Below are positions 4,632-23,335 of a stretch of 23,335 bases of DNA, piece after piece (position 1 is the first letter of the stretch; every line of letters begins with the position of its first letter). This DNA comes from a virus: positions 1 to 23,335 of IMG/VR virus record IMGVR_UViG_3300008050_000328. One strand, 5' to 3'. The notes beneath the pieces are model-generated. The model was given only the letters and a program-made list of their open reading frames with translations. It was not told the origin of the DNA and ran no database searches. The translations under genes were made by a program, and so were the position numbers.

Positions 4632-6488
4632 ATGGAACTATCCAAAAGTATATTATCTGACATCACAATCCACATGAAATACGCGAGGTTTTTACCAGAA
4701 AAAAATCGTCGCGAGGTTTGGAAAGAAATAGTCAGCCGGAACAAAAACATGCACATTAAAAAATATCCTGAACTAAAAGATGAAATTCGAAAAGTATATA
4801 AATTAGTTTATGATAGAAAAATTTTGCCGTCTATGAGAAGTTTGCAATTCGCCGGAAAGCCTATTCAGATAAGTCCAAATAGAATATATAATTGTGCATA
4901 TCTTCCAATTGATGATTGGAGATCATTTTCTGAAACCATGTTTTTATTGCTAGGTGGAACAGGAGTTGGTTATTCAGTACAGAAACATCATATAGAACAA
5001 TTGCCAGAAATTCATAAGCCAAATGAAAATCGTAATCGCAGATTTTTAATTGCAGATAATATTGAAGGTTGGGCAGATGCAGTAAAGGTTTTAGTAAAAT
5101 CATATTATTATGGAGGATCAAATATTGTTTTTGATTTTAGTGATATTCGTTCAAAAGGAGAACGGTTGGTCACATCAGGTGGAAAGGCACCAGGTCCTCA
5201 ACCGTTAAAGGAATGTTTAGTTAAAATTAGGGGAATATTAGATGAGAAGGCTAATGGAGAGAAGTTATCAACACTTGAAGTCCATGATGTTGTGTGTCAT
5301 ATCGCAGATGCCGTATTGGCCGGAGGGATCCGTCGTGCAGCTCTTATATCGTTGTTTTCGGCAGACGATGAAGAAATGATTGCTTGTAAAACAATATCAG
5401 CATTAGAATTGAATCCACAAAGAGGAAGAGCTAATAATTCAGCAGTGTTAGTTCGTAGTCGAATTACTAAAGAATTTTTTATGGATTTATGGAAACGTGT
5501 TGAAGTAAGCCGATCTGGTGAACCAGGCATTTATTTCAATAATGATAAAGATTGGGGAACTAATCCATGTTGTGAGATTGCTTTAAGACCATTTCAATTT
5601 TGTAATTTATGTGAAGTTAATGCAAGCGACATTGAATCTCAAGAAGACTTAAATGAAAGAGTCAAAGCCGCCGCCTTTATAGGAACATTACAAGCTGGAT
5701 ATGTTGATTTTCATTATTTAAGGCCTATTTGGCAGAGAACGACAGAAAAAGAAGCACTTATTGGAGTTTCAATGACTGGCATAAGCAGTGGTAGAGTGTT
5801 AGGTTATGACATGAAAGAAGCTGCGCGGTCTGTTAAGGCAGAAAATGAACGAGTTGCAAACCTATTAGGAATTAATAAAGCCGCTAGGTGTACAACCGTT
5901 AAACCAGCAGGAACCACATCATTAGTATTAGGAACATCTTCAGGTATTCATTCTTGGCATAATGATTATTATATTAGACGTATACGAGTTGGAAAGAATG
6001 AAGCAATTTATCAATATCTAGCCACTAATCATCCAGATTTAGTTGAAGATGAATATGAACGGCCTCATGATACTGCAGTTATATCCGTTCCTCAAAAAGC
6101 ACCACTTGGAGCTATTGTTAGAACAGAATCACCATTCCAGATGTTGGAAAGAATAAAAAGAGTTGCAACTGAATGGGTAAAGTCTGGTCATAGAAGTGGA
6201 ATGAATACACATAATGTTTCTGCAACTATTTCTTTGCGAGACCATGAATGGGGAGCTGCCGGCGAATGGATGTGGGAAAACAAAGAATATTATAACGGTC
6301 TTGCTGTATTACCATACCATGGCGGATTTTATCCACAACTACCAATGGAAGATATATCAGAAAATACATATAGTACCATGCTTTCTTGTCTTAAAGATAT
6401 TAATTTATCTGAAGTTGTAGAAGTTAATGATGAAACAGATTTAAAAGCAGAAATTGCATGTGCAGGAAATGCATGTGAAGTTGTTTAA
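4632..6488 (+). CDS. nrdJ: Class II (adenosylcobalamin-dependent) ribonucleotide reductase
   Basis: A 618-residue monomeric-type class II ribonucleotide reductase, making deoxynucleotides from ribonucleotides with a B12-derived radical. Key sites: C88 in RIYNCAY (N-terminal redox Cys), GGTGVGYSVQ at 108-117, NPCCEI at 311-316 giving the thiyl Cys (C313) and the catalytic Glu (E315), FCNLCE with C324 as the partner redox Cys, and KPAGTTS near 424-430 for substrate phosphate binding. The C-terminal tail CAGNACEVV (C610, C615) would re-reduce the active site. The residue between the thiyl Cys and Glu is Cys where Gly is usual. The protein is shorter than Lactobacillus RTPR (739). No class I NrdB-like partner gene follows, consistent with class II. 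A host supply or import of B12 is implied. Confidence 0.88.
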   Translation: MELSKSILSDITIHMKYARFLPEKNRREVWKEIVSRNKNMHIKKYPELKDEIRKVYKLVYDRKILPSMRSLQFAGKPIQISPNRIYNCAYLPIDDWRSFSETMFLLLGGTGVGYSVQKHHIEQLPEIHKPNENRNRRFLIADNIEGWADAVKVLVKSYYYGGSNIVFDFSDIRSKGERLVTSGGKAPGPQPLKECLVKIRGILDEKANGEKLSTLEVHDVVCHIADAVLAGGIRRAALISLFSADDEEMIACKTISALELNPQRGRANNSAVLVRSRITKEFFMDLWKRVEVSRSGEPGIYFNNDKDWGTNPCCEIALRPFQFCNLCEVNASDIESQEDLNERVKAAAFIGTLQAGYVDFHYLRPIWQRTTEKEALIGVSMTGISSGRVLGYDMKEAARSVKAENERVANLLGINKAARCTTVKPAGTTSLVLGTSSGIHSWHNDYYIRRIRVGKNEAIYQYLATNHPDLVEDEYERPHDTAVISVPQKAPLGAIVRTESPFQMLERIKRVATEWVKSGHRSGMNTHNVSATISLRDHEWGAAGEWMWENKEYYNGLAVLPYHGGFYPQLPMEDISENTYSTMLSCLKDINLSEVVEVNDETDLKAEIACAGNACEVV

Positions 6489-7746: not shown

Positions 7747-8223
7747 ATGCCCAAATTTCAATCAACAAAAATATTTGATAATTATACAATTGCTTTACGG
7801 CAATGGAAAGCAGGACATTCTCATTGTCAATTATTGCATGGATATGCACTTGAATTTAAAGTATGGTTTGAACCAAATGATACTGCAATTAATGATGGTT
7901 TGGATGAAATGAATTGGGTTGTTGATTTTGGTGGATTTAAAGATGCACCAATTGGTAATGGCTTAAAATCATGGATGGATCATATGTTTGATCATACTTT
8001 ATTGGCTGAAAAAGATGATCCTTATGTTGATATATTCGAACAAATGGGTCAAATGGGAATAGCCAAAGTACATATTTTAGATAAATTAGGAGCCGAAGCA
8101 ATGGCTAAATTAGTTTATGATAAATTCAATGATGTTTTATCTAAAACAGATGCATCTAGATGTAAGGTAGTTAAAGTTGAATGTAACGAAAATAAAAAGA
8201 ATTCGGCAATATATTATGAATAG
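7747..8223 (+). CDS. queD: QueD-like 6-carboxy-tetrahydropterin synthase, divergent
   Basis: A 158-residue member of the PTPS/QueD family. QueD converts dihydroneopterin triphosphate into 6-carboxy-5,6,7,8-tetrahydropterin on the way to 7-deazaguanines. Visible signatures: C27-QLL-H31-G-Y33, matching the E. coli C27-x3-H31-G-H33 core; WVVDFGGFK at 57-65 (usual VxDFxxLK); FDHTLL at 81-86 with the catalytic Asp-His; and E145 in VECNENKKNS near the C-terminus. The third His of the zinc site is Tyr (HGY) and the first (E. coli H16) is not in its usual place (ALRQW), although H24 and H26 are close. The protein is about 35 residues longer than E. coli QueD. A related but changed chemistry is possible. 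Confidence 0.83.
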   Translation: MPKFQSTKIFDNYTIALRQWKAGHSHCQLLHGYALEFKVWFEPNDTAINDGLDEMNWVVDFGGFKDAPIGNGLKSWMDHMFDHTLLAEKDDPYVDIFEQMGQMGIAKVHILDKLGAEAMAKLVYDKFNDVLSKTDASRCKVVKVECNENKKNSAIYYE

Positions 8224-9028
8224 AGATTTTTTACCAATATCAGAAGATTTTTATACAATCCAAGGTGAGGGAGTCACAACTGGATATCCAGCTTATTTTA
8301 TACGATTAATGAATTGTAATTTAAGTTGTGGAGCTTCTAAGAAACATATGAAAGAAATTAGAACTGGAGATTTTCCACCTGGAGATTTTAAAGGTGATTT
8401 ACATGATAAAGGAGTAGCTACCTGGACATGTGATACAATTCCAGTCTGGATTAAAGGACATAAAAAACCACATCATTATTTGATTGATAAATGGATCGAC
8501 CAAGAAATTGATGATTGGATTTATAATGGAAGGGTACATTTAGTATGGACAGGTGGAGAACCCTTAATGAAAGTAAATCAAGAATGTATTGTTAATTTTT
8601 TAGAATTTTATGATAGACTTTATGATTCTAATAATGTTTATAATGAAATTGAAACAAACGGAACAATGTATATAGGAGATGAATTGTTCAATCGATTAAA
8701 TCAAATTAATTGTTCCGTAAAATTGGCTAATTCAGGACATTCAAAAGAAGAACGAATTGTTCCTAAAGCAATTAAAAGAATAATGGAACATGACAATTAT
8801 TATTTTAAATTTGTAATTAGTAATAACCAAGACTTGCAAGAAATTTTAGATGATTTTGTAACTCCATTTAATATTGATCCAAACCGGATTTGTATGATGC
8901 CAGGATTAGACGATCAGGATAATTTTCATGAAAGAACAGCATTTGTATTGGAAATGGCTAAAAAATATGGATTTATAGGATTAACAAGATTACATGTCAG
9001 TGCATGGAATAAAACAACAGGAGTATAG
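8216..9028 (+). CDS. queE: QueE-like radical SAM 7-carboxy-7-deazaguanine synthase
   Basis: A 270-residue radical SAM enzyme that would contract 6-carboxytetrahydropterin to CDG. The N-terminus DFYTIQGEGVTTGYPAYFIR is typical of QueE. The cluster cysteines appear as C34-NLS-C38, then 33 residues, then C72 in WTCDT, so an insertion splits the usual Cys motif. TGGEP at 112-116 is the SAM-binding GGE motif, and EIETNGT at 144-150 is a QueE hallmark. I chose ATG 8216 over an in-frame ATG at 8177 because the family begins near this point; the gene overlaps queD by eight bases, implying translational coupling. Activity with the split motif is inferred. Confidence 0.87.
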   Translation: MNRDFLPISEDFYTIQGEGVTTGYPAYFIRLMNCNLSCGASKKHMKEIRTGDFPPGDFKGDLHDKGVATWTCDTIPVWIKGHKKPHHYLIDKWIDQEIDDWIYNGRVHLVWTGGEPLMKVNQECIVNFLEFYDRLYDSNNVYNEIETNGTMYIGDELFNRLNQINCSVKLANSGHSKEERIVPKAIKRIMEHDNYYFKFVISNNQDLQEILDDFVTPFNIDPNRICMMPGLDDQDNFHERTAFVLEMAKKYGFIGLTRLHVSAWNKTTGV

Positions 9029-9031
9029 AAT

Positions 9032-9340
9032 ATGAAAATGAAACCAATGGGAGACCAAGTTCTTTTAAAGGAACAAGAAAAGGCTGAAAAGACAACCTCC
9101 GGAATTATTTTAGTTGATGGTATAGATGGACAATTCGTTTATGCAGATGTTATATCAATTGGACCAGGATTAATTAATCCAATGTTAGGAAACATGATTC
9201 CAATGGCCGTAAAAGAAGGCGATACAGTATTATTACATAAAAGTAATTTGGGTAGTCAAAAAGAAATTAAATTAAATGATGAAAAATATATACTAGTGCG
9301 TGAATCAGAAATTGCAATGGTATCAACAAGTAGAAAATAA
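9032..9340 (+). CDS. GroES-like co-chaperonin
   Basis: A 102-residue cpn10-fold protein. MKPMGDQVLLKEQEKAEKTTSGIILVD shows the family N-terminus with the mobile loop (EKTTSGIIL, about residues 18-26) that docks on GroEL. VISIGPG at about 41-47 and KEGDTVLLHKS follow the GroES order, and EKYILVRESEIAMV is the closing strand. Phage co-chaperonins (T4 gp31) replace host GroES for folding the large capsid protein. No GroEL gene is visible, so it should work with the host chaperonin. It lies three bases after queE, in the middle of the deazaguanine operon. Confidence 0.87.
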   Translation: MKMKPMGDQVLLKEQEKAEKTTSGIILVDGIDGQFVYADVISIGPGLINPMLGNMIPMAVKEGDTVLLHKSNLGSQKEIKLNDEKYILVRESEIAMVSTSRK

Positions 9341-9557: not shown

Positions 9558-10184
9558 ATGAAAAAATTAAAATACGCTAATTTAAATGATCCACGGACAG
9601 AAGCAGAACGTCAAGAAATAATTACTAATGCATCATATTATTATGGACAATATATGGATGCTTTAGGAATTGATTGGCGAAATGATCCTAATTCGAATGA
9701 TACTCCAATGCGGGTAGCGAAGGCATTTGTTAATGATCTGGCAGAAGGCTGTTATATAGAACCGCCAAAGATTACAACATTTAAAAATGTTAATAAATAT
9801 GATGGGATAGTATTTCAAGGAAATATTGATGTAAAATCATTTTGTTCACATCACCATTTACCATTTGTTGGTTATGCTCATGTAGCTTATTTGCCTGGCG
9901 ATAATGTAATTGGTTTAAGTAAATTAAATAGAATTGTAGAATGGTTCGCTAGACGTCCTCAGGTACAAGAAAATTTAACAATGCAAATTCATGATTACCT
10001 AAACGAGGTTTGTGATAAGAATGATGGTGTAGCTGTAGTAATAGAAGCAAAACATATGTGTGCTTGTGTAAGAGGAGTTCGTCATAATAGTACAATGATG
10101 ACAAGTAAATTATCTAAAGCATTCAAAAAAGATCCAGCCACTAGAGAAGAATTTTATAAATTTATTGAAAATATTAAAGCGTAA
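9558..10184 (+). CDS. folE: GTP cyclohydrolase I
   Basis: A 208-residue type I GTP cyclohydrolase producing dihydroneopterin triphosphate from GTP, the first step of both folate and 7-deazaguanine synthesis. Signature FCSHHHLPFVGYAHVAYLPG at 95-114 supplies zinc ligands C96 and H99, VIGLSKLNRIVEWFARRPQV at 117-136 is the conserved helix, QENLTMQI follows, and H166-M-C168 in EAKHMCACVRGVRH completes the zinc site. E. coli FolE is 222 residues. Together with queD and queE just upstream it gives the route GTP to CDG. The stop overlaps the DNA polymerase start by one base (TAATG). Confidence 0.94.
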   Translation: MKKLKYANLNDPRTEAERQEIITNASYYYGQYMDALGIDWRNDPNSNDTPMRVAKAFVNDLAEGCYIEPPKITTFKNVNKYDGIVFQGNIDVKSFCSHHHLPFVGYAHVAYLPGDNVIGLSKLNRIVEWFARRPQVQENLTMQIHDYLNEVCDKNDGVAVVIEAKHMCACVRGVRHNSTMMTSKLSKAFKKDPATREEFYKFIENIKA

Positions 10185-13051: not shown

Positions 13052-13471
13052 ATGTACGGAAAAAGTTACTGGTATGGTAAAGAAGTAGAAGGCAGGTTAT
13101 CTGATATAGAAACTGTATTTGTAAGAGGCCAAGTACCAGAAAATTATAAAGAATATCCACATATCTATTTTACTATAGAATATATTGAAATGGCATGTGT
13201 ACATGGTAATTGGGATGATATTCATGATATATTAGAAACCAAACAATATGTTACAGTAGAAGCAAATCAGAAAACAATAGATAAAATTCCAATGTCTATA
13301 TTCAATAAGGTACATCTAATTTACAGAATCCCAGATGAAAACGTTACTAAATTAAAGAAAACAGATACATTATCAATTGATCAAGGCTGGTATAGAGTAC
13401 ATCAAGTTACAAAATGTAATATGATGGAAATTAATCCAGATGATTATAAATTTGATAGAATAAAAGAATAA
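13052..13471 (+). CDS. Unknown 139-residue protein next to the glycosyltransferase
   Basis: No family recognised. It has several aromatic-rich strands (YPHIYFTIEYIEMACVHG, VHLIYRIPDENV, DQGWYRVHQVTKCNMMEI) and an acidic segment NWDDIHDILE. No signal or membrane segment is visible. It is the first gene after the promoter at 12999-13029 and ends two bases before the glycosyltransferase, so it is likely translated together with it and dpdA. A role in the same modification pathway is possible but rests only on position. Confidence 0.72.
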   Translation: MYGKSYWYGKEVEGRLSDIETVFVRGQVPENYKEYPHIYFTIEYIEMACVHGNWDDIHDILETKQYVTVEANQKTIDKIPMSIFNKVHLIYRIPDENVTKLKKTDTLSIDQGWYRVHQVTKCNMMEINPDDYKFDRIKE

Positions 13472-13473
13472 TT

Positions 13474-14667
13474 ATGAAAAGAAATTTATTTTACTTTGGT
13501 CTTGAACCACTTAAGAGTCGGTATACATATCAATTATCAAAAGAATGGATGCCAAAAACATTTGAAGAATATAAAGACAAATTAAACTTTGTAGAAGTTG
13601 AAGGCGATTTTGACCCCGACCAAGAAATTAAAGTAGGTGCTGTATTAGATGCAATAGGTAGAGGAAAATATAGTTTATCACAATGCCAGAATTTTTTACA
13701 AATGTTATATGATGACAAAGTTCAAGACGGTGATGTTATATTTTTACAAGATTATTGGACACCAGGCGTTGAAGCTATTTGGTATGCTTTAGATTTATAC
13801 GGTTATAAAGATGTTAAAGTATATGCAATGTTACATGCACAATCAGTTGATGAATATGATTTTACTTATCCGATGAAAGATTGGATGAGGCCATATGAAT
13901 TAGGATTAGATAAAAGAATGGCGGGTATATTTGTAGGTAGTTCAATACATAAAGAACAATTAAGAGCAACAGGATTTGAAGCACCTATTCATGTAGTGTC
14001 ATTACCAATTCATAAAGACGCAACATTAGCTAAATTACCAGCCGGAGAATATACAAAAAAGAATACTATAGTTTATTCGTCTAGATTAGATAAAGAAAAG
14101 AATCCATTCTTTATGATGAAAGTAGCTGAATCTTTTTTAGAATTTCATCCAAAATTTGAATGGCATGTAACTACATCAGGAAAAGAGTTTAGAAGTATGT
14201 TACCCGGAGCAATTGATGCTTTAAAAGCGTTAGCAAAGAAACAACCAAGATTTAAATTATTAACAGGACTTACAAAACAAGAATATTATACAGAATTAGC
14301 AACTTGTAAAATACAATTTAATTCATCATTACAAGATTATGTATCTTGGACAGTTATCGAATCTACAGCATTTGGAGCCGATATAGTATTTCCATATTTC
14401 AGAAGCTTTCCGGAGTTTGTAGATTCTGATAGAATGTATAAACCATTTGATGTTAAGAGTGCTTTAGAAACAATCGAAACTGTTTTGGAATCGCCTAGAG
14501 TACATCCGGATATAGTTAACCGATCTGATTTAGGAAGACGAATGGAAGGATATATTGTCGCTAATGATTTTGATAAAGAAATTTGTGTTTGGCATGAAAA
14601 AGAATATTGTGAACATTTATTAGCAGAAGAATATAAAGGTGCATATCAATATACATTACAATTATGA
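13474..14667 (+). CDS. GT-B fold glycosyltransferase coupled to dpdA
   Basis: A 397-residue protein with the layout of a GT4-like glycosyltransferase. The C-terminal domain opens with NTIVYSSRLDKEKNPFFMMK (about 198-217), the usual start of the nucleotide-sugar-binding half, and contains LLTGLTKQEYYTELATCKIQ and VSWTVIESTAFGADIVFP; the Glu in WTVIES occupies the place of the family's conserved donor-binding Glu. The N-terminal half (FYFGLEP, DVIFLQDYWTPG, VYAMLHAQSVDEYDF) would bind the acceptor. The donor and acceptor cannot be read from sequence. Its stop codon overlaps the dpdA start in ATGA, so the two are translationally coupled, which points toward DNA-base glycosylation as one option; glycan modification is another. 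Confidence 0.78.
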   Translation: MKRNLFYFGLEPLKSRYTYQLSKEWMPKTFEEYKDKLNFVEVEGDFDPDQEIKVGAVLDAIGRGKYSLSQCQNFLQMLYDDKVQDGDVIFLQDYWTPGVEAIWYALDLYGYKDVKVYAMLHAQSVDEYDFTYPMKDWMRPYELGLDKRMAGIFVGSSIHKEQLRATGFEAPIHVVSLPIHKDATLAKLPAGEYTKKNTIVYSSRLDKEKNPFFMMKVAESFLEFHPKFEWHVTTSGKEFRSMLPGAIDALKALAKKQPRFKLLTGLTKQEYYTELATCKIQFNSSLQDYVSWTVIESTAFGADIVFPYFRSFPEFVDSDRMYKPFDVKSALETIETVLESPRVHPDIVNRSDLGRRMEGYIVANDFDKEICVWHEKEYCEHLLAEEYKGAYQYTLQL

Positions 14668-15851
14668 AAAAAGATTTAATATATTATCCATCATTAAGCG
14701 CCGGAGGATGTGCTGGTGATTTCAAAAAAAATAAAGAAATTAAACCCGGACTAACCTGCAGGTTTTACGATAAGTCATTTCCAGAAAGATGGAGGCATCC
14801 ATATTTTCTAATAACTGCCGGCCATCATTATAAATGGATGGACGCAAGAGACAAATATGGATTGGAAGATGATGTAGTAGTATTAGGAGATTCTGGAGGA
14901 TTTCAATTAGCCACCGGTGCTATTAAATGGGACCCTAAATTTAAAGAAACTATTTTTCATTGGTTAGAAGCTAATTGTGATCTAGGAGTTAATTTAGATA
15001 TACCACCTAGAGCAAAATATGATGGAAAATTTTATGAATGTCTAGACATTAGTTATGACAACTTTAAATATTTTGCAGAAAACCAATCTGGTAAATGTAA
15101 ATTTTTAAATGTTATTCAAGGTAATAATGTAGAAGAATATGAAGCTTGGTATCAAAAGGTTAAAGATTTTGATTTTAACGGTTGGTGTATTGGTGGAGCT
15201 CAAAAACGTGTAACGATGTTTATGTCGGCATTGGTTCCAATGATCCGGAATAGAGAATTTGAAAAAAATAGAAATCAATATATACATATATTAGGAATCT
15301 CAAAAATATCTGACTTCTTTATATTAAGCTTCTTTCAAAAGATGATGAATAAATATTATGGAGGAAGAATCCAAATATCAACTGATTCATCATCACCAGG
15401 ATTATATCCTGTTTACGGAACATATTTACATTCTCCACAATTAAGTAAAATGACGTTTACAGATTTGTATTTTCCAAAAGGTGAAGACCTTCCTTATACT
15501 GCAGAAGATTTAGTTCCAAATCCATTAGGCCATCCAGCATCTGAAGGATTTACATTTGGGGAAGTATCAACATATAAAGGGGATGTACCAATGAAAATGA
15601 CATTAAATAATTTATTTGTATTTAATGAAACAGTAAAGCAAGTAGAAGAAATTGTTCAATGTCATAATGAATTACTTAAAACAGTAGTTCCGAGAGATTT
15701 TTATGCGATATTAATGAGCATGGAAGAAATGTTTTTGAACCCAGATAAAGCAATTCACATCTATAATAAAAATAGACAGTTGTATGATAAGTTTGGTGGC
15801 AGCACGAGAGATTTAGTAAATAATCAAGTATTTAATCAGTTTTTTGAATAA
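14664..15851 (+). CDS. dpdA: DpdA-like DNA guanine transglycosylase (TGT superfamily)
   Basis: A 395-residue TIM-barrel relative of tRNA-guanine transglycosylase; phage DpdA proteins exchange guanine in DNA for a 7-deazaguanine. TGT hallmarks in order: LGDSGGFQ with D76 (base-binding Asp), LNVIQGN at 148-154 (TGT VQG), WCIGGAQKR at 174-182 (TGT substrate-binding IGG), YIHILGIS at 206-213 (TGT HLMGVG-like), and STDSSSPGLYP with D241 as the likely nucleophile. The C-terminal TGT zinc motif (CxCxxC) is absent, as expected for a DpdA rather than a tRNA enzyme. It is coupled to the upstream glycosyltransferase by ATGA, lies 11 bases before the sliding clamp, and is served by folE, queD and queE 4.5-7 kb upstream. 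Confidence 0.88.
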   Translation: MKKDLIYYPSLSAGGCAGDFKKNKEIKPGLTCRFYDKSFPERWRHPYFLITAGHHYKWMDARDKYGLEDDVVVLGDSGGFQLATGAIKWDPKFKETIFHWLEANCDLGVNLDIPPRAKYDGKFYECLDISYDNFKYFAENQSGKCKFLNVIQGNNVEEYEAWYQKVKDFDFNGWCIGGAQKRVTMFMSALVPMIRNREFEKNRNQYIHILGISKISDFFILSFFQKMMNKYYGGRIQISTDSSSPGLYPVYGTYLHSPQLSKMTFTDLYFPKGEDLPYTAEDLVPNPLGHPASEGFTFGEVSTYKGDVPMKMTLNNLFVFNETVKQVEEIVQCHNELLKTVVPRDFYAILMSMEEMFLNPDKAIHIYNKNRQLYDKFGGSTRDLVNNQVFNQFFE

Positions 15852-18663: not shown

Positions 18664-19599
18664 ATGAATAAATTTTTAAAATATAGTGTAGTAGAACCCA
18701 AAGAAGGAGATAAACGAATATCATATTCACAGTTTGCAATGTATTCGTCTTGTCCTAAACATTGGGAATTAGCTTATGCAAAAGGATTAAGAACATTTTC
18801 TCAAAGTATACACACTATTTTTGGCACAGCATTCCATGAAACATTACAGACATATATATCAACTATGTATAAAGATTCAGTTAAAGCAGCTGATGAATTA
18901 GATTTACATAAACTCTTACGAGATAATATGGCTTCCGTATATAAAAAGGCCATAGATGAAACGAAAGAACATTTTTCTACTAAATTTGAATTGGGTGAGT
19001 TTTATAATGATGGTGTAGCAATTTTGGATTGGTTCAAGAGCCACCGCGGTGCATATTTTAGTAAAAAAGGATATGAACTAGTCGGAATAGAAATGCCATT
19101 ATATACCCAAGCTGTTGATGGAAATAAAGATATTAAAATGTTAGCTTATTTAGATATTGTATTAAGAGATACAGTATTTAATAAAATTGAAATAATTGAT
19201 ATTAAAACGTCTACCCGAGGTTGGAATAAATGGCAAAAAGCAGATAAAATAAAATCATCTCAGTTAGTTTTGTATAAAGAATATTTTGCTAAACAATATG
19301 GGTTTAGTGCAGATATGATTGATATAAAATATTTAATTGTAAAACGAAAGTTATTTGATGGAGCAATGTTTCCACAAAAAAGAGTACAAGAATTTATTCC
19401 GGCATCCGGCAAACCAACTAGGAACAAATTATTAAAAGAAATTAATGAATTTATTAATGTAGGATTTAAAGATGATGGATCGTATAATTTAGATAATAAA
19501 TATCTAGCCGTTCCTGGTAAGAACAATAAGAGTTGTAAGTTTTGTGAATTTAAAGATAACCAAGATTTGTGTCCAAAAGAAAATAGAATTAGAGAATGA
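18664..19599 (+). CDS. PD-(D/E)XK nuclease with Fe-S cysteine cluster (RecB/Cas4-like)
   Basis: A 311-residue nuclease of the RecB/Cas4 type. RISYSQFAMYSSCPKHWELAY gives the N-terminal motif with C30. FGTAFHET holds H58, AYLDIVL holds D164, EIIDIKTS holds D179 and K181 of the D-x-K active site, and QLVLY at 200-204 is the QxxxY motif of the family. The C-terminus CKFCEFKDNQDLC supplies C291, C294 and C303 which, with C30, would bind a 4Fe-4S cluster as in AddB and Cas4. It probably trims or resects DNA ends in recombination or host DNA breakdown. It ends in an ATGA overlap with the SLOG gene. Confidence 0.87.
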   Translation: MNKFLKYSVVEPKEGDKRISYSQFAMYSSCPKHWELAYAKGLRTFSQSIHTIFGTAFHETLQTYISTMYKDSVKAADELDLHKLLRDNMASVYKKAIDETKEHFSTKFELGEFYNDGVAILDWFKSHRGAYFSKKGYELVGIEMPLYTQAVDGNKDIKMLAYLDIVLRDTVFNKIEIIDIKTSTRGWNKWQKADKIKSSQLVLYKEYFAKQYGFSADMIDIKYLIVKRKLFDGAMFPQKRVQEFIPASGKPTRNKLLKEINEFINVGFKDDGSYNLDNKYLAVPGKNNKSCKFCEFKDNQDLCPKENRIRE

Positions 19600-19997
19600 A
19601 AGTTGCGATTATAGGTTCTCGAGAATGGGAAAACAAACGGAAGGTAAAAGAATTGTTTACAAATTTAAAGAATAAATTTGGAGACAAATTAACAATAATA
19701 TCAGGTGGATGTCCTAACGGAGCAGATAGATATGCTAAGAAATTTGCTTTAGAGTTTGATATTAAATATCAAGAATTTAATCCGGCACATACACCTAGAA
19801 ATTTGTATTCAATGATGTCAGAAAATTATTATGGAAAGGTATATCATGTATCACAATTCCATCATAGAAATATGTTGATTGCTAAGGCCTGTGATGTAAT
19901 GTGTGCTTTAATACCAAAAGGACATAAAAGTAAAGGATCAGAAAGTGCAATTAAAGCAGCTAAAAAATTAAAGAAACCAATAGTAATAATTAATTAA
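19596..19997 (+). CDS. SLOG-domain nucleotide-binding protein (DUF2493/YspA-like)
   Basis: A 133-residue Rossmann-like protein. MKVAIIGSREW at 1-11 and SGGCPNGADRYAKKFA at about 36-51 match the SLOG signature, a strand-loop for nucleotide phosphate binding with the GGxxGAD motif. HHRNMLIAKACDVMCALIP and KAAKKLKKPIVIIN are the later strands. SLOG proteins bind nucleotides or nucleotide-derived signals; the ligand here is unknown. The gene overlaps the nuclease stop (ATGA), suggesting a joint role, for example in host nucleotide handling or countering a nucleotide-signal defence. The latter is speculation. Confidence 0.83.
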   Translation: MKVAIIGSREWENKRKVKELFTNLKNKFGDKLTIISGGCPNGADRYAKKFALEFDIKYQEFNPAHTPRNLYSMMSENYYGKVYHVSQFHHRNMLIAKACDVMCALIPKGHKSKGSESAIKAAKKLKKPIVIIN

Positions 19998-19998
19998 A

Positions 19999-20196
19999 AT
20001 GGAAATAACTGATAGAATATCTATTAACAGATACGTAGAGATGATACAAAAATTAAACCCTAAAATTAGTTATTGTAATGCTTATAAATTAGCATACGAA
20101 GAATTTACTAATTACAAAGAATTAAGAGATCAGGGCTATAGTGATGTTCATGCAAAAAGGTTAAGTGCAAGTATCCGATGTGGAATTTATTTATGA
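19999..20196 (+). CDS. Unknown 65-residue protein
   Basis: A helical, charged small protein beginning MEITDRISINRYVEMIQKLNP (described only in part) and containing AYKLAYEEFTNYKELRDQGY. No family recognised. It follows the SLOG gene by one base and its stop overlaps the next ATG in ATGA, which favours genuine translation. Confidence 0.66.
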   Translation: MEITDRISINRYVEMIQKLNPKISYCNAYKLAYEEFTNYKELRDQGYSDVHAKRLSASIRCGIYL

Positions 20197-20513
20197 AAAA
20201 AATATTATTAATAGTATTAAGCTGTTTGTTTTATGTAAACAGTTACTCACAAAAAATATACTTTTGTAAATATCCACACCTGGCAGATATAAAAGTTTTT
20301 GTGACAGATTATTCACATCAAGCAGATTGGTTATTATATATGGTAAAATATCCATACGAATCAAAAAAACCTGGTCATTGGTATATAGTAAAATATCCAT
20401 ATCAAGCAGATAAAAAGGTATACGTAGTAAAATATCCATATCAAGCAGATAAAAAGATATATTTTGTTTCGTATAAATCGCGTGTTAAACTAAAAAAAGC
20501 ATATTTATATTAA
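20193..20513 (+). CDS. Secreted 13-residue-repeat protein (DUF6150-like)
   Basis: A 106-residue protein. MKKILLIVLSCLFYVNSYSQ is a Sec signal peptide; cleavage before or near the Gln is typical of Bacteroidota. The mature part is about five to six imperfect copies of a 13-residue unit of the form (K)xYxVKYPYQADK, as in KYPHLAD, DYSHQAD, KYPYESK and two nearly identical KYPYQAD copies. Similar repeats are seen in small Bacteroidota proteins assigned to DUF6150 (from memory, unverified). I prefer ATG 20193 over the in-frame ATG 20178, since it starts the signal peptide and overlaps the previous stop in ATGA. Function is unknown; a host-derived envelope protein is likely. Confidence 0.75.
   Translation: MKKILLIVLSCLFYVNSYSQKIYFCKYPHLADIKVFVTDYSHQADWLLYMVKYPYESKKPGHWYIVKYPYQADKKVYVVKYPYQADKKIYFVSYKSRVKLKKAYLY
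20388..20465 (+). repeat. Two tandem 39-base units
   Basis: A 39-base unit beginning GTAAAATATCCATATCAAGC occurs at 20388-20426 and again at 20427-20465, identical over the first 30 bases and diverged at the 3' end. Each unit encodes 13 residues including VKYPYQADKK. Older, diverged copies lie upstream in the same gene. Confidence 0.88.
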
Positions 20514-20541: not shown

Positions 20542-22008
20542 ATGCAACAAATCAAGTTACCGAAATTACGTAAAATTGACCCAGACAAACCCAAAAGAAA
20601 AAAGAAAAAAATATTATTATTGTCAGATGATTTAAGATTACATTCTGGTATAGGAACTATGTCCAAAGAATTTGTTATTGGAACTGTAGATAAATATGAT
20701 TGGGTTCAAGTTGGAGCAGCTATTAATCATCCTGACCAAGGAAAATGTTTTGATCTATCTGAGGAAACACAAAAAGTTACAGGAGTAGAGGATGCATCAG
20801 TTAAGATATATGCCAATAATGGATATGGTAATCCTCAATTATTATATTATTTATTAGAAACAGAAAAACCAGATGCTATATTACATTTTACAGACCCTAG
20901 ATTTTGGGGTTGGCTGTACCAAATGGAAGATCAGCTCAGACAACATATCCCATTGATGTATTATAATATTTGGGACGATCTTCCTTATCCACAATGGAAC
21001 GAAGATTTTTATGAGTCTTGTGATTTATTAATGAATATAAGTAAGCAAACAAATAATATTGTAAAAAATGTTTTAAAACGGTATCCAAAAGAAGATTGGG
21101 CAGTTCAATATGTACCTCATGGAATAAATGAAAAATTTTATAAACCAATTACCCCATTGGATAATGATTATAAAGAATATCATGAATTCGATAAGACCTT
21201 TCGATTAAAGAATAATAACGCAGAATTTGTAGTATTTTGGAATAATCGAAATATAAGAAGAAAACAGCCAGGAGATGTGATCCTTGCTTACAAAACATTT
21301 TGTGATTCCTTACCAAAAGAAAAGGCTGAAAAATGCTTACTATTAATGCATACTCAACCCAGGGATGATAATGGAACAGATTTACCTGCAGTGAAGAGAG
21401 CATTATGTAATGATTATAATATCACATTTTCAGGCGTTGGTATAGATGATAAACAGTTGAATTATTATTATAATATTGCAGATGTTACTATTAATATTGC
21501 TTCCAATGAAGGATTTGGATTAAGTGGAGCAGAATCGTTAATGGCCGGCACACCTATTATTAATAACGTTACAGGAGGGTTACAAGACCATTGCAGGTTT
21601 GAAGATGAAAATGGAAAGTGGATAGACTTTACACCTGAATTTCCAACCAATCATTTAGGCCGTTATAAAAAGCATGGTAAGTGGGTTAAGCCAGTATTTC
21701 CGAGTAATATATCATGTCAAGGATCTCCTCAAACTCCATATATTTTTGATGATAGATGTGATTTTAGAGATGTTGCTAAAGCAATTAAATATTGGTATGA
21801 TATGGGCAGAGATAACCGTAAAGAACATGGAATGGCCGGACACGATTGGGTTTGTTCAGAAGAATCCGGAATGTCGGCTAGAGAAATGTCGAATGGATTT
21901 ATTAAACATATGGAAATATGTTTTGAAAAATGGAAGCCAAGAAAAAGATTTAAATTATATAAAGTTGAACAAGTTCCAATTAATGAAACACCAGGAGTAT
22001 TAGTATGA
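20542..22008 (+). CDS. GT-B glycosyltransferase with N-terminal KLPKLRKI motif
   Basis: A 488-residue glycosyltransferase of the GT4-like type. After a basic leader (residues 1-24, with IKLPKLRKI at 4-12 and a KPKRKKKK cluster) come KILLLSDDLRLHSGIGTMSK, the acceptor-domain start with a glycine loop, MYYNIWDDLPYPQWNEDFYE, YVPHGINEKFY, and in the donor domain FVVFWNNRNIRRKQPGDV and NEGFGLSGAESLMAGTPII with the conserved E-x7-E spacing (EGFGLSGAE). The acceptor is unknown. Its stop overlaps the next glycosyltransferase start in ATGA, so the two probably act in the same pathway. Confidence 0.83.
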   Translation: MQQIKLPKLRKIDPDKPKRKKKKILLLSDDLRLHSGIGTMSKEFVIGTVDKYDWVQVGAAINHPDQGKCFDLSEETQKVTGVEDASVKIYANNGYGNPQLLYYLLETEKPDAILHFTDPRFWGWLYQMEDQLRQHIPLMYYNIWDDLPYPQWNEDFYESCDLLMNISKQTNNIVKNVLKRYPKEDWAVQYVPHGINEKFYKPITPLDNDYKEYHEFDKTFRLKNNNAEFVVFWNNRNIRRKQPGDVILAYKTFCDSLPKEKAEKCLLLMHTQPRDDNGTDLPAVKRALCNDYNITFSGVGIDDKQLNYYYNIADVTINIASNEGFGLSGAESLMAGTPIINNVTGGLQDHCRFEDENGKWIDFTPEFPTNHLGRYKKHGKWVKPVFPSNISCQGSPQTPYIFDDRCDFRDVAKAIKYWYDMGRDNRKEHGMAGHDWVCSEESGMSAREMSNGFIKHMEICFEKWKPRKRFKLYKVEQVPINETPGVLV

Positions 22009-23335
22009 AACCATTTATTGTTATGCAAGGACCAGTAGCTACTAGGTCCGGTTACGGAAATCACATGAGAGATTTAGCCTCAGCGTTAATATCATCAGAC
22101 AAATATGAAATAGCTATTGTATCACTCCCATGGGGCAGTTGTCCTATGAATGCTCTTAATAGTCAAGACGAAACTCATAAAGCGATTATAGATAAAATAA
22201 TTACGACAAATATCAATAAACAACCAGACATATTTATTCAATTATCTGTACCACATGAATTTCAAAAAATCGGAAAGTATAATATAGGAGTTACAGCTGG
22301 AATTGAAACTAATCAATGTTCAGCTGAATGGCTAGAAGGTTGTAATAGAATGGACTTAATAATTACTACATCAAAACATTCAAGTGATGTATTTACAAGT
22401 ACTGTTTATGATAAAATAAACGAACAAACAAAACAAAAAGAAGCTGAATTAAAATTAACAACTCCTATCGAAATATTATTTGAGGGATGTGATTTGAACG
22501 TCTATCGTAAAACAGATAAATTGGATAGGAATGTAGTAGATGAATTAACACATATTAAAGAAGATTTTTGTTACCTTTTTGTTGGACATTGGTTACAAGG
22601 CGGGTTTGGACAAGATAGAAAAGATGTAGGAATGTTGATTAAAACATTTTGTGAAACGTTTAAAAAGAAAGTAGGAAGTAAAAAACCGGCTCTAGTATTA
22701 AAAACAAGCGGTGCTGGTTTTAGTATAATTGATAGGGAATATTGTTTAAATCGGATTAGGGATATTATAAGTGAATATGGCCCAGCTGGACCAAGTGTTT
22801 ATTTATTACATGGTGATTTTACGGATAATGAAATAAATTCGTTGTATAATCATCCTAAGATGAAGGCAATGGTTTCATTTACTAAAGGAGAAGGCTTTGG
22901 TCGTCCGTTATTAGAATTTGGTATGACCGGTAAGCCAATAATAGCTTCTAATTGGAGTGGACATATTGATTTTCTTAATCCAGACAATTGTGTACTCTTG
23001 CCAGGACAGTTAACCGATGTACATAAATCAGTTGTACAAGACAAAATGATAATAAAAGGTTCAAAATGGTTTACTGTTAATTATAGTTATGCAAGTCAAA
23101 TATTTGTTGATGTACATAAAAAGTACAAAGAATATTTAGTAAAATCTAGAAAACAACCAGAACATATTCGAAAGAATTTTACGTTTGATATGATGAAAGA
23201 AAAATTTGTGGGAATGATAGACGCAGTCGCGTCCAAAATGCCACAACCGGTTAGCTTAAATTTACCTAAGTTAAGGAAAATCAATTCCGGAAATAATGAA
23301 CCTACAAAAATTAAATTACCTAAATTAAAAAAGAT
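22005..23335 (+). CDS. GT-B glycosyltransferase, cut by the window end
   Basis: An open frame of 443 complete codons running off the right edge. MKPFIVMQGPVATRSGYGNHMRDLASAL starts the acceptor domain with an SGYG glycine loop. FEGCDLNVYR, YLFVGHWLQGGFGQDRKDV and KGEGFGRPLLEFGMTGKPII give the donor domain with E-x7-E spacing (EGFGRPLLE) and the usual ASNWSGHIDFL segment after it. The tail has LNLPKLRKI at 418-426 and IKLPKLKK at 436-443, echoing the N-terminus of the preceding glycosyltransferase. The start is the ATG in the ATGA overlap with the upstream stop. The C-terminal end and any further repeats lie beyond the window. Confidence 0.83.
   Translation, partial: MKPFIVMQGPVATRSGYGNHMRDLASALISSDKYEIAIVSLPWGSCPMNALNSQDETHKAIIDKIITTNINKQPDIFIQLSVPHEFQKIGKYNIGVTAGIETNQCSAEWLEGCNRMDLIITTSKHSSDVFTSTVYDKINEQTKQKEAELKLTTPIEILFEGCDLNVYRKTDKLDRNVVDELTHIKEDFCYLFVGHWLQGGFGQDRKDVGMLIKTFCETFKKKVGSKKPALVLKTSGAGFSIIDREYCLNRIRDIISEYGPAGPSVYLLHGDFTDNEINSLYNHPKMKAMVSFTKGEGFGRPLLEFGMTGKPIIASNWSGHIDFLNPDNCVLLPGQLTDVHKSVVQDKMIIKGSKWFTVNYSYASQIFVDVHKKYKEYLVKSRKQPEHIRKNFTFDMMKEKFVGMIDAVASKMPQPVSLNLPKLRKINSGNNEPTKIKLPKLKK

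Follow-up and report, generated by a model that had tools for sequence, protein, structure and literature searches.

A distinct subfamily of phage glycosyltransferases (GT) keeps company with a DpdA-type DNA-guanine transglycosylase in well over 100 viruses, both related and very unrelated, as judged from their gene content. Because the association is kept in so many viruses, we regard a sugar-coated guanine in viral DNA, so far unreported, as a serious prediction, and the base, made from 7-carboxy-7-deazaguanine (CDG), is probably glycosylated. The GT is encoded in a marine virus sequence of 23,335 nucleotides (the window, meaning the whole stretch of DNA that was analysed), a 23-kb fragment that also carries T4-like replication genes. 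The genes concerned are the following.

7747 to 8223, + strand: QueD (6-carboxytetrahydropterin synthase), matching PTPS PF01242 (6e-12) and phrog_2389
8216 to 9028, + strand: QueE (7-carboxy-7-deazaguanine synthase), matching phrog_2076 (2.8e-47) and NCBIfam QueE models; its start is taken as the ATG overlapping the end of QueD
9558 to 10184, + strand: FolE (GTP cyclohydrolase I), matching PF01227 (2e-52)
13052 to 13471, + strand: U139, an open reading frame of 139 residues; a GT-linked accessory protein and putative degenerate QueE relative without Fe-S cysteines
13474 to 14667, + strand: GT, a GT-B, GT4-like glycosyltransferase of 397 residues, assigned from its model, structural matches and conserved residues
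14664 to 15851, + strand: putative DpdA-type DNA-guanine transglycosylase of 395 residues, assigned from TGT motifs and model matches

QueD, QueE and FolE thus lie 3-6 kb upstream of the U139-GT-DpdA trio. The sequence-only reading of this DNA had described the trio with a 2-nt gap between the U139 stop and the GT start and an ATGA (14664-14667) in which the GT stop overlaps the DpdA start, and we confirm that all three frames are open over 13052-15851. From the coupling of GT to DpdA it had proposed a sugar-decorated 7-deazaguanine. The tie between the GT subfamily and dpdA is upheld by the survey described below, but the ATGA is weak evidence on its own: of the 30 junctions between accepted genes in the window, 17 measure 5 nt or less and 7 are overlaps of 1 or 4 nt, and because such junctions are common here we give the overlap little weight and reject it as evidence of a GT-DpdA link.

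Several other genes of the window deserve mention. Positions 4632-6488 encode a protein resembling B12-dependent (class II) ribonucleotide reductase, and a GroES-like co-chaperonin (9032-9340) lies within the deazaguanine cluster; another locus (L215) has a GroES-like gene with a GroEL-like gene after it. Further downstream are a SLOG-type (YspA/DprA-like) protein (19596-19997), possibly nucleotide-sensing or defence-related, a DUF6150 protein with repeated KYPYQADKK motifs (20178-20513), and two more GT4-like genes (phrog_2170; 20542-23335) that overlap by 4 nt and, in the window's marine relatives, are kept about 5-7 kb downstream of DpdA.

Single-sequence searches match the window DpdA weakly (TIGR00432, 7e-5; NF041059 DpdA, 3e-4; phrog_10773, 7.5e-5). 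Because its score of 19.8 bits against the NCBIfam DpdA model NF041059 is below the cut-off of 200, we call the protein DpdA-type rather than a member of NF041059, and its sequence places it in a divergent phage subfamily. Across 20 relatives the catalytic motifs of the TGT superfamily vary little or not at all (D76-S77-G78-G79, Q81, D112, H208, L210-G211 and D241); among them are the second catalytic aspartate and the motifs DSGG(F)Q and HxLG. The closest annotated relatives are phage DpdA/TGT proteins; phrog_10773 includes a queuine tRNA-ribosyltransferase of phage X1, and the DpdA of phage ACP17, which is related to that of the window, has relatives in nt-1, KVP40, Stenotrophomonas phages, Ps15 and pf16. 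A DpdA profile found no match among PDB sequences. As a general DpdA probe phrog_10773 proved too narrow, since it misses the DpdA of phage Phosso that our alignment A2 finds. Two DpdA subfamilies are combined with the GT: D1, to which the DpdA proteins of Vibrio phage nt-1 and related phages belong, and D2, which corresponds to phrog_887. In nt-1 and its relatives, deazaguanine is present in virion DNA (PMC12028318).

The Pfam match of the GT is weak (Glycos_transf_1, E=4e-4, below the cut-off). An AlphaFold model built from 53 aligned sequences (pLDDT 92.8, pTM 0.91) shows the two-Rossmann GT-B fold, with a Foldseek E of 4e-13 to MshA and BshA as the best VIA-align match (Z 26.9 over 316 residues, 3.2 Å). 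Its matches are retaining GT4 enzymes, namely MshA, BshA, SenB, LmbT and the cyanobacterial tetrahydrobiopterin glucosyltransferase BGluT (9v0l, Z 24.1; 5zes, Z 23.1). Neither T4 AGT nor BGT is among the best 50 structural matches listed, and QTMAN is not among the matches listed, absences that exclude nothing. Residues R204, K209, D288 and E296 are invariant in 53 homologues, R204 and K209 forming the donor-phosphate R..K pair of GT4 enzymes. Where canonical GT4 enzymes show EX7E, a motif present in the GT relatives of X1, ACP17, PA5oct and Phosso, the window clade has DX7E (D288...E296), a departure that counts somewhat against our main reading, although the GT of this clade is likely to be active. 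We are confident in the prediction of a GT4-like GT-B enzyme with an intact donor site. The modelled fold is generic for GT4 and also resembles those of small-molecule and pterin glycosyltransferases, which counts against a role in DNA glycosylation. Comparison with viral models places an unnamed protein (E 4e-27) and the ACP17 enzyme (3e-22) far above generic viral GT4 proteins (1e-10), and the GT therefore represents a phage subfamily of its own, whose N-terminal signature is LEPxxxRYT.

Relatives of the GT occur in 20 of 50,697 phage records, and all 20 of these also carry a relative of DpdA, a pairing that by these sequence counts is far beyond chance. The isolated phages ACP17, X1, BUCT-ZZ01 and PA5oct have the GT inside deazaguanine clusters, with DpdA adjoining or near; in Phosso it sits in a cluster with FolE and QueE, and DpdA is elsewhere in the genome. 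All five genomes contain FolE/QueD/QueE/DpdA genes. Among near relatives in IMG/VR, DpdA lies directly downstream of the GT in 79 of 80 contigs, gaps in this linkage being contig ends (as in L040 and L062), and the association is kept in distant relatives down to 32% identity. Most GT loci that seemed to be without DpdA carry the second subfamily, D2. In all, 172 of 184 non-redundant loci have a DpdA of one subfamily or the other; among the 82 loci flanked by 4 kb or more on both sides, 78 do. In two of the other four (L086 and L088) DpdA is encoded at another place in the genome, which leaves L145 and L254 with no DpdA found. L145, on a 297-kb contig (G008), has the GT and the QueD-like protein T125 described below and no DpdA that we could find, and counts against our main reading. 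The same contig has FolE, QueE and a phosphoribosyltransferase-like gene, and its modified base is perhaps incorporated at the nucleotide level. FolE, QueD and QueE usually lie beside GT-DpdA loci, and a true QueD is present in all GT genomes tested.

The loci include many related marine and metagenomic contigs, and the counts thus overstate independence; the weight of the linkage lies in the unrelated isolated phages and the two DpdA subfamilies. Since the GT is combined with both D1 and D2, the link outlives replacement of DpdA. A scan of a genome collection gave 8 GT matches, mostly short contigs binned into MAGs and probably phage. A search for the GT in 12 DpdA or T125 phages gave no match; it was made without a positive control and was weighed only together with the locus scans. 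The sequence-only reading had suggested asking whether the GT subfamily occurs mostly in phages without dpdA, and the survey finds it almost exclusively with dpdA, in many kinds of phages.

This linkage also bears on the alternative that the GT coats an unrelated target, such as a host surface glycan or a virion protein, and is only a passenger of the cluster, the DNA bearing unglycosylated CDG or 7-deazaguanine. Surface polysaccharides are frequent targets of phage GT4 enzymes, and two more GT4 genes lie in the window at 20542-23335. These two, however, have no such linkage in distant phages, whereas the GT under study stays linked in phages whose genomes are laid out in unrelated ways and with either DpdA subfamily, QueC being excluded; we consider an unrelated target improbable, if the best placed of the alternatives.

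QueC is absent from all 184 non-redundant GT loci, and from the complete GT phages ACP17, BUCT-ZZ01, PA5oct and Phosso and a 173-kb contig. X1 gives a sub-threshold QueC match only, and larger GT contigs give none or partial weak matches, such as the 60-position match just above the cut-off in G008; a T125 phage, D479, has a 69-position match. No QueC is found in the window, a 23-kb fragment that alone would not settle its absence. Conversely, DpdA genomes without T125 have QueC in 8 of 8 cases. The gene order polymerase, recombinase, FolE, DpdA, QueE, helicase is common to phages Ps15 and ACP17; within it Ps15 has QueC and ACP17 has the GT and T125. These gene distributions lead us to recognise a branch of DNA 7-deazaguanine modification that does without QueC, and in its phages the GT appears to take QueC's place.

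One of the eight QueC-bearing genomes, that of Xanthomonas phage PhiXhv-16, carries an outlying GT4. We rejected it as a clear member of the subfamily, as the match of its GT4 begins only at residue 69 and its QueC domain lies in a longer protein; an apparent QueC match at L088 in an early scan is this longer gene. At L088 5654-8888 the QueC-domain protein (a 521-aa frame), a GlcNAc-malate-type deacetylase and the GT4 gene adjoin in this DpdA phage, and the trio is possibly a second, QueC-based route to a sugar-decorated deazaguanine.

T125 corresponds to phrog_17812 and is a homologue of QueD by profile comparison (E 6.3e-7 over 122 columns; PH0634, E 0.0028). In 20 sequences its zinc histidines H18, H37 and H39 are invariant and the motifs HxxRxxEF and SCE are conserved, and no conserved cysteine is found before the HxH motif, where QueD/PTPS enzymes have their catalytic cysteine. 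Most GT loci contain it, or else it lies in another part of the GT genome; the window-clade relatives G012 and G002 have it, and it was not found within the 23-kb window. There are 25 T125 loci without the GT; none has QueC, and 17 have a third TGT-like family (D3). A T125-seeded search of distant loci found the GT in 30 of 49 and QueC in 0 of 49. Because T125 is present in GT loci and in 25 GT-less loci, all without QueC, it marks the QueC-less branch. Following T125 in GT-less loci, the third TGT-like family (phrog_20335-like, with a DNxAFE motif; L215 10792-11634, L227 6416-7264, L167 9417-10289) apparently consists of unannotated transglycosylases. Cui et al. in 2023 reportedly described phages with dCDG and dDG and predicted a CDG decarboxylase, DpdL, for which T125 is a candidate.

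The likeness of T125 to QueD/PTPS leaves room for a different substrate: the GT might glycosylate a pterin from FolE and a QueD/PTPS-like protein, the cluster making a pterin glycoside and DpdA being a neighbour with a separate role. Cyanobacterial BGluT glucosylates tetrahydrobiopterin and is among the GT4 matches given above, and FolE and QueD-like proteins do stand in the GT cluster. Yet BGluT scores below BshA, MshA and SenB, DpdA and the pterin-consuming QueE are linked equally, and T125, which is without the PTPS catalytic cysteine, is found with DpdA-like genes in loci that have no GT. We hold a pterin glycoside to be unlikely.

U139 is conserved upstream of the GT. Its family is present in 57 of 82 GT loci versus 0 of 25 GT-less T125 loci and, over these loci, occurs only with the GT; a profile comparison adds a distant version of 173 residues (E 1.8e-4 over 140 columns). 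The top VIA row for U139 is E. coli QueE, at Z 5.4 over 117 residues and 4.0 Å and tied with unrelated folds, and a profile match to QueE (E 0.0016, with an N-terminal GEG...FxR motif) covers 26 columns only. None of 30 sequences has a CX3CX2C or variant Fe-S motif, and the profile found no match among PDB sequences. Given the weak structural and short profile matches, we reject U139 as a firm QueE homologue and keep the relationship as a lead, which suggests a recruited QueE.

Genes for nucleotide-sugar metabolism stand beside the GT in one distant clade, with a GalE-like epimerase downstream in about 30 loci (Pfam E 5e-48 in one example) and a DegT/DnrJ-type aminotransferase-like gene downstream in 15; no such genes lie beside the GT in the window fragment. 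Their presence fits a dedicated and varied sugar donor. A few loci have a second GT-like gene. A phosphoribosyltransferase-family gene recurs in GT clusters, often beside QueE (L135 3212-3646, a PF00156 member; L084 5078-5548; L082 8309-8740; 10 other loci), and in four loci (L149 6098-7273 and 3 others) a radical SAM/SPASM protein, possibly a further tailoring enzyme, lies between DpdA and T125.

We therefore lean, with somewhat better than even confidence, towards a QueC-less pathway in which a base derived from CDG is glycosylated by the GT with the help of U139. FolE, QueD and QueE would supply CDG, T125 would tailor the CDG-derived base in place of QueC's conversion to preQ0, and DpdA would insert the tailored base into DNA. 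The GT, with U139 assisting, would use a nucleotide-sugar as donor to glycosylate the deazaguanine, the acceptor being the base in DNA rather than the free base and the transfer most likely following insertion, as in T4 with hydroxymethylcytosine. The glycosylated base may act as bulky protection against restriction and CRISPR enzymes. Against this pathway counts an acceptor-atom problem, in that CDG has no hydroxyl, and the problem is sharper if T125 is a decarboxylase that leaves bare 7-deazaguanine. The sugar might conceivably be attached as a carboxylate ester, through an amide or through carbon, none of these being favoured over the others. That many phages of sea, soil and fresh water have glycosylated 7-deazaguanine in their DNA, made without QueC, with T125 and U139 recruited and the sugar varied by epimerase and aminotransferase genes, seems to us evenly balanced between true and false. 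The carboxyl handle on cytosine that is extended by amide bonds (PMC12783734, a paper of 2025) offers a helpful chemical comparison for a carboxyl carried by deazaguanine.

DpdA belongs to the TGT superfamily, and the sugar on tRNA queuosine is, to our knowledge, the sole glycosylated 7-deazaguanine known. That precedent notwithstanding, we think it very unlikely that the transglycosylase acts on tRNA and that the sugar sits on a tRNA 7-deazaguanine, as a phage counterpart of galactosyl- or mannosyl-queuosine, given that FolE, QueD and QueE without QueC cannot reach queuosine by the known route and that the D1 family includes nt-1 and its relatives, with deazaguanine in virion DNA (PMC12028318).

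The literature that we searched, which leaves out the specialist papers closest to the topic, yielded no report of a glycosylated 7-deazaguanine in DNA, and no nucleoside data on phages PA5oct, MIJ3, Callisto or Paride. All phage DNA sugars known to us sit on pyrimidines. Iyer et al. 2021 (PMC7824862) describe a deazaguanine system of PA5oct; in the passages considered, no GT is tied to it. A sugar on 7-deazaguanine, if true, would unite the two principal means by which phages armour their DNA, account for the absence of QueC throughout one group of DpdA phages, and assign roles to three families so far uncharacterised, namely the GT subfamily, phrog_17812 and the 139-aa family. The prediction is directly testable, as carriers including ACP17, X1, PA5oct and Paride are in culture.

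Compared with known systems, the phages that make dPreQ0, dPreQ1, dADG or dG+ (CAjan, 9g, nt-1) likewise have FolE, QueD, QueE and a DpdA of the same superfamily, but they have QueC where the GT phages instead have the GT, the QueD-like T125 and U139. The dCDG/dDG phages with the predicted DpdL are also comparable, as a QueC-less pathway at the level of CDG, like the one proposed here, would give such bases; no GT is known to us from the work of Cui et al. 2023 on them. The small-molecule glycosyltransferases BshA, MshA, SenB, LmbT and BGluT resemble the GT in fold and donor site, whereas identity to them is about 10% and the GT belongs to a phage subfamily with LEPxxxRYT. QTGAL and QTMAN place a sugar on a 7-deazaguanine, as proposed here; unlike the phage system, they are eukaryotic, act on tRNA and use a cyclopentenediol hydroxyl as acceptor. 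The α- and β-glucosyltransferases of T4, which act on 5-hydroxymethylcytosine DNA, follow the same logic that we propose, modifying the base, adding a sugar and so evading nucleases, although the base is different and insertion here would be by base exchange.
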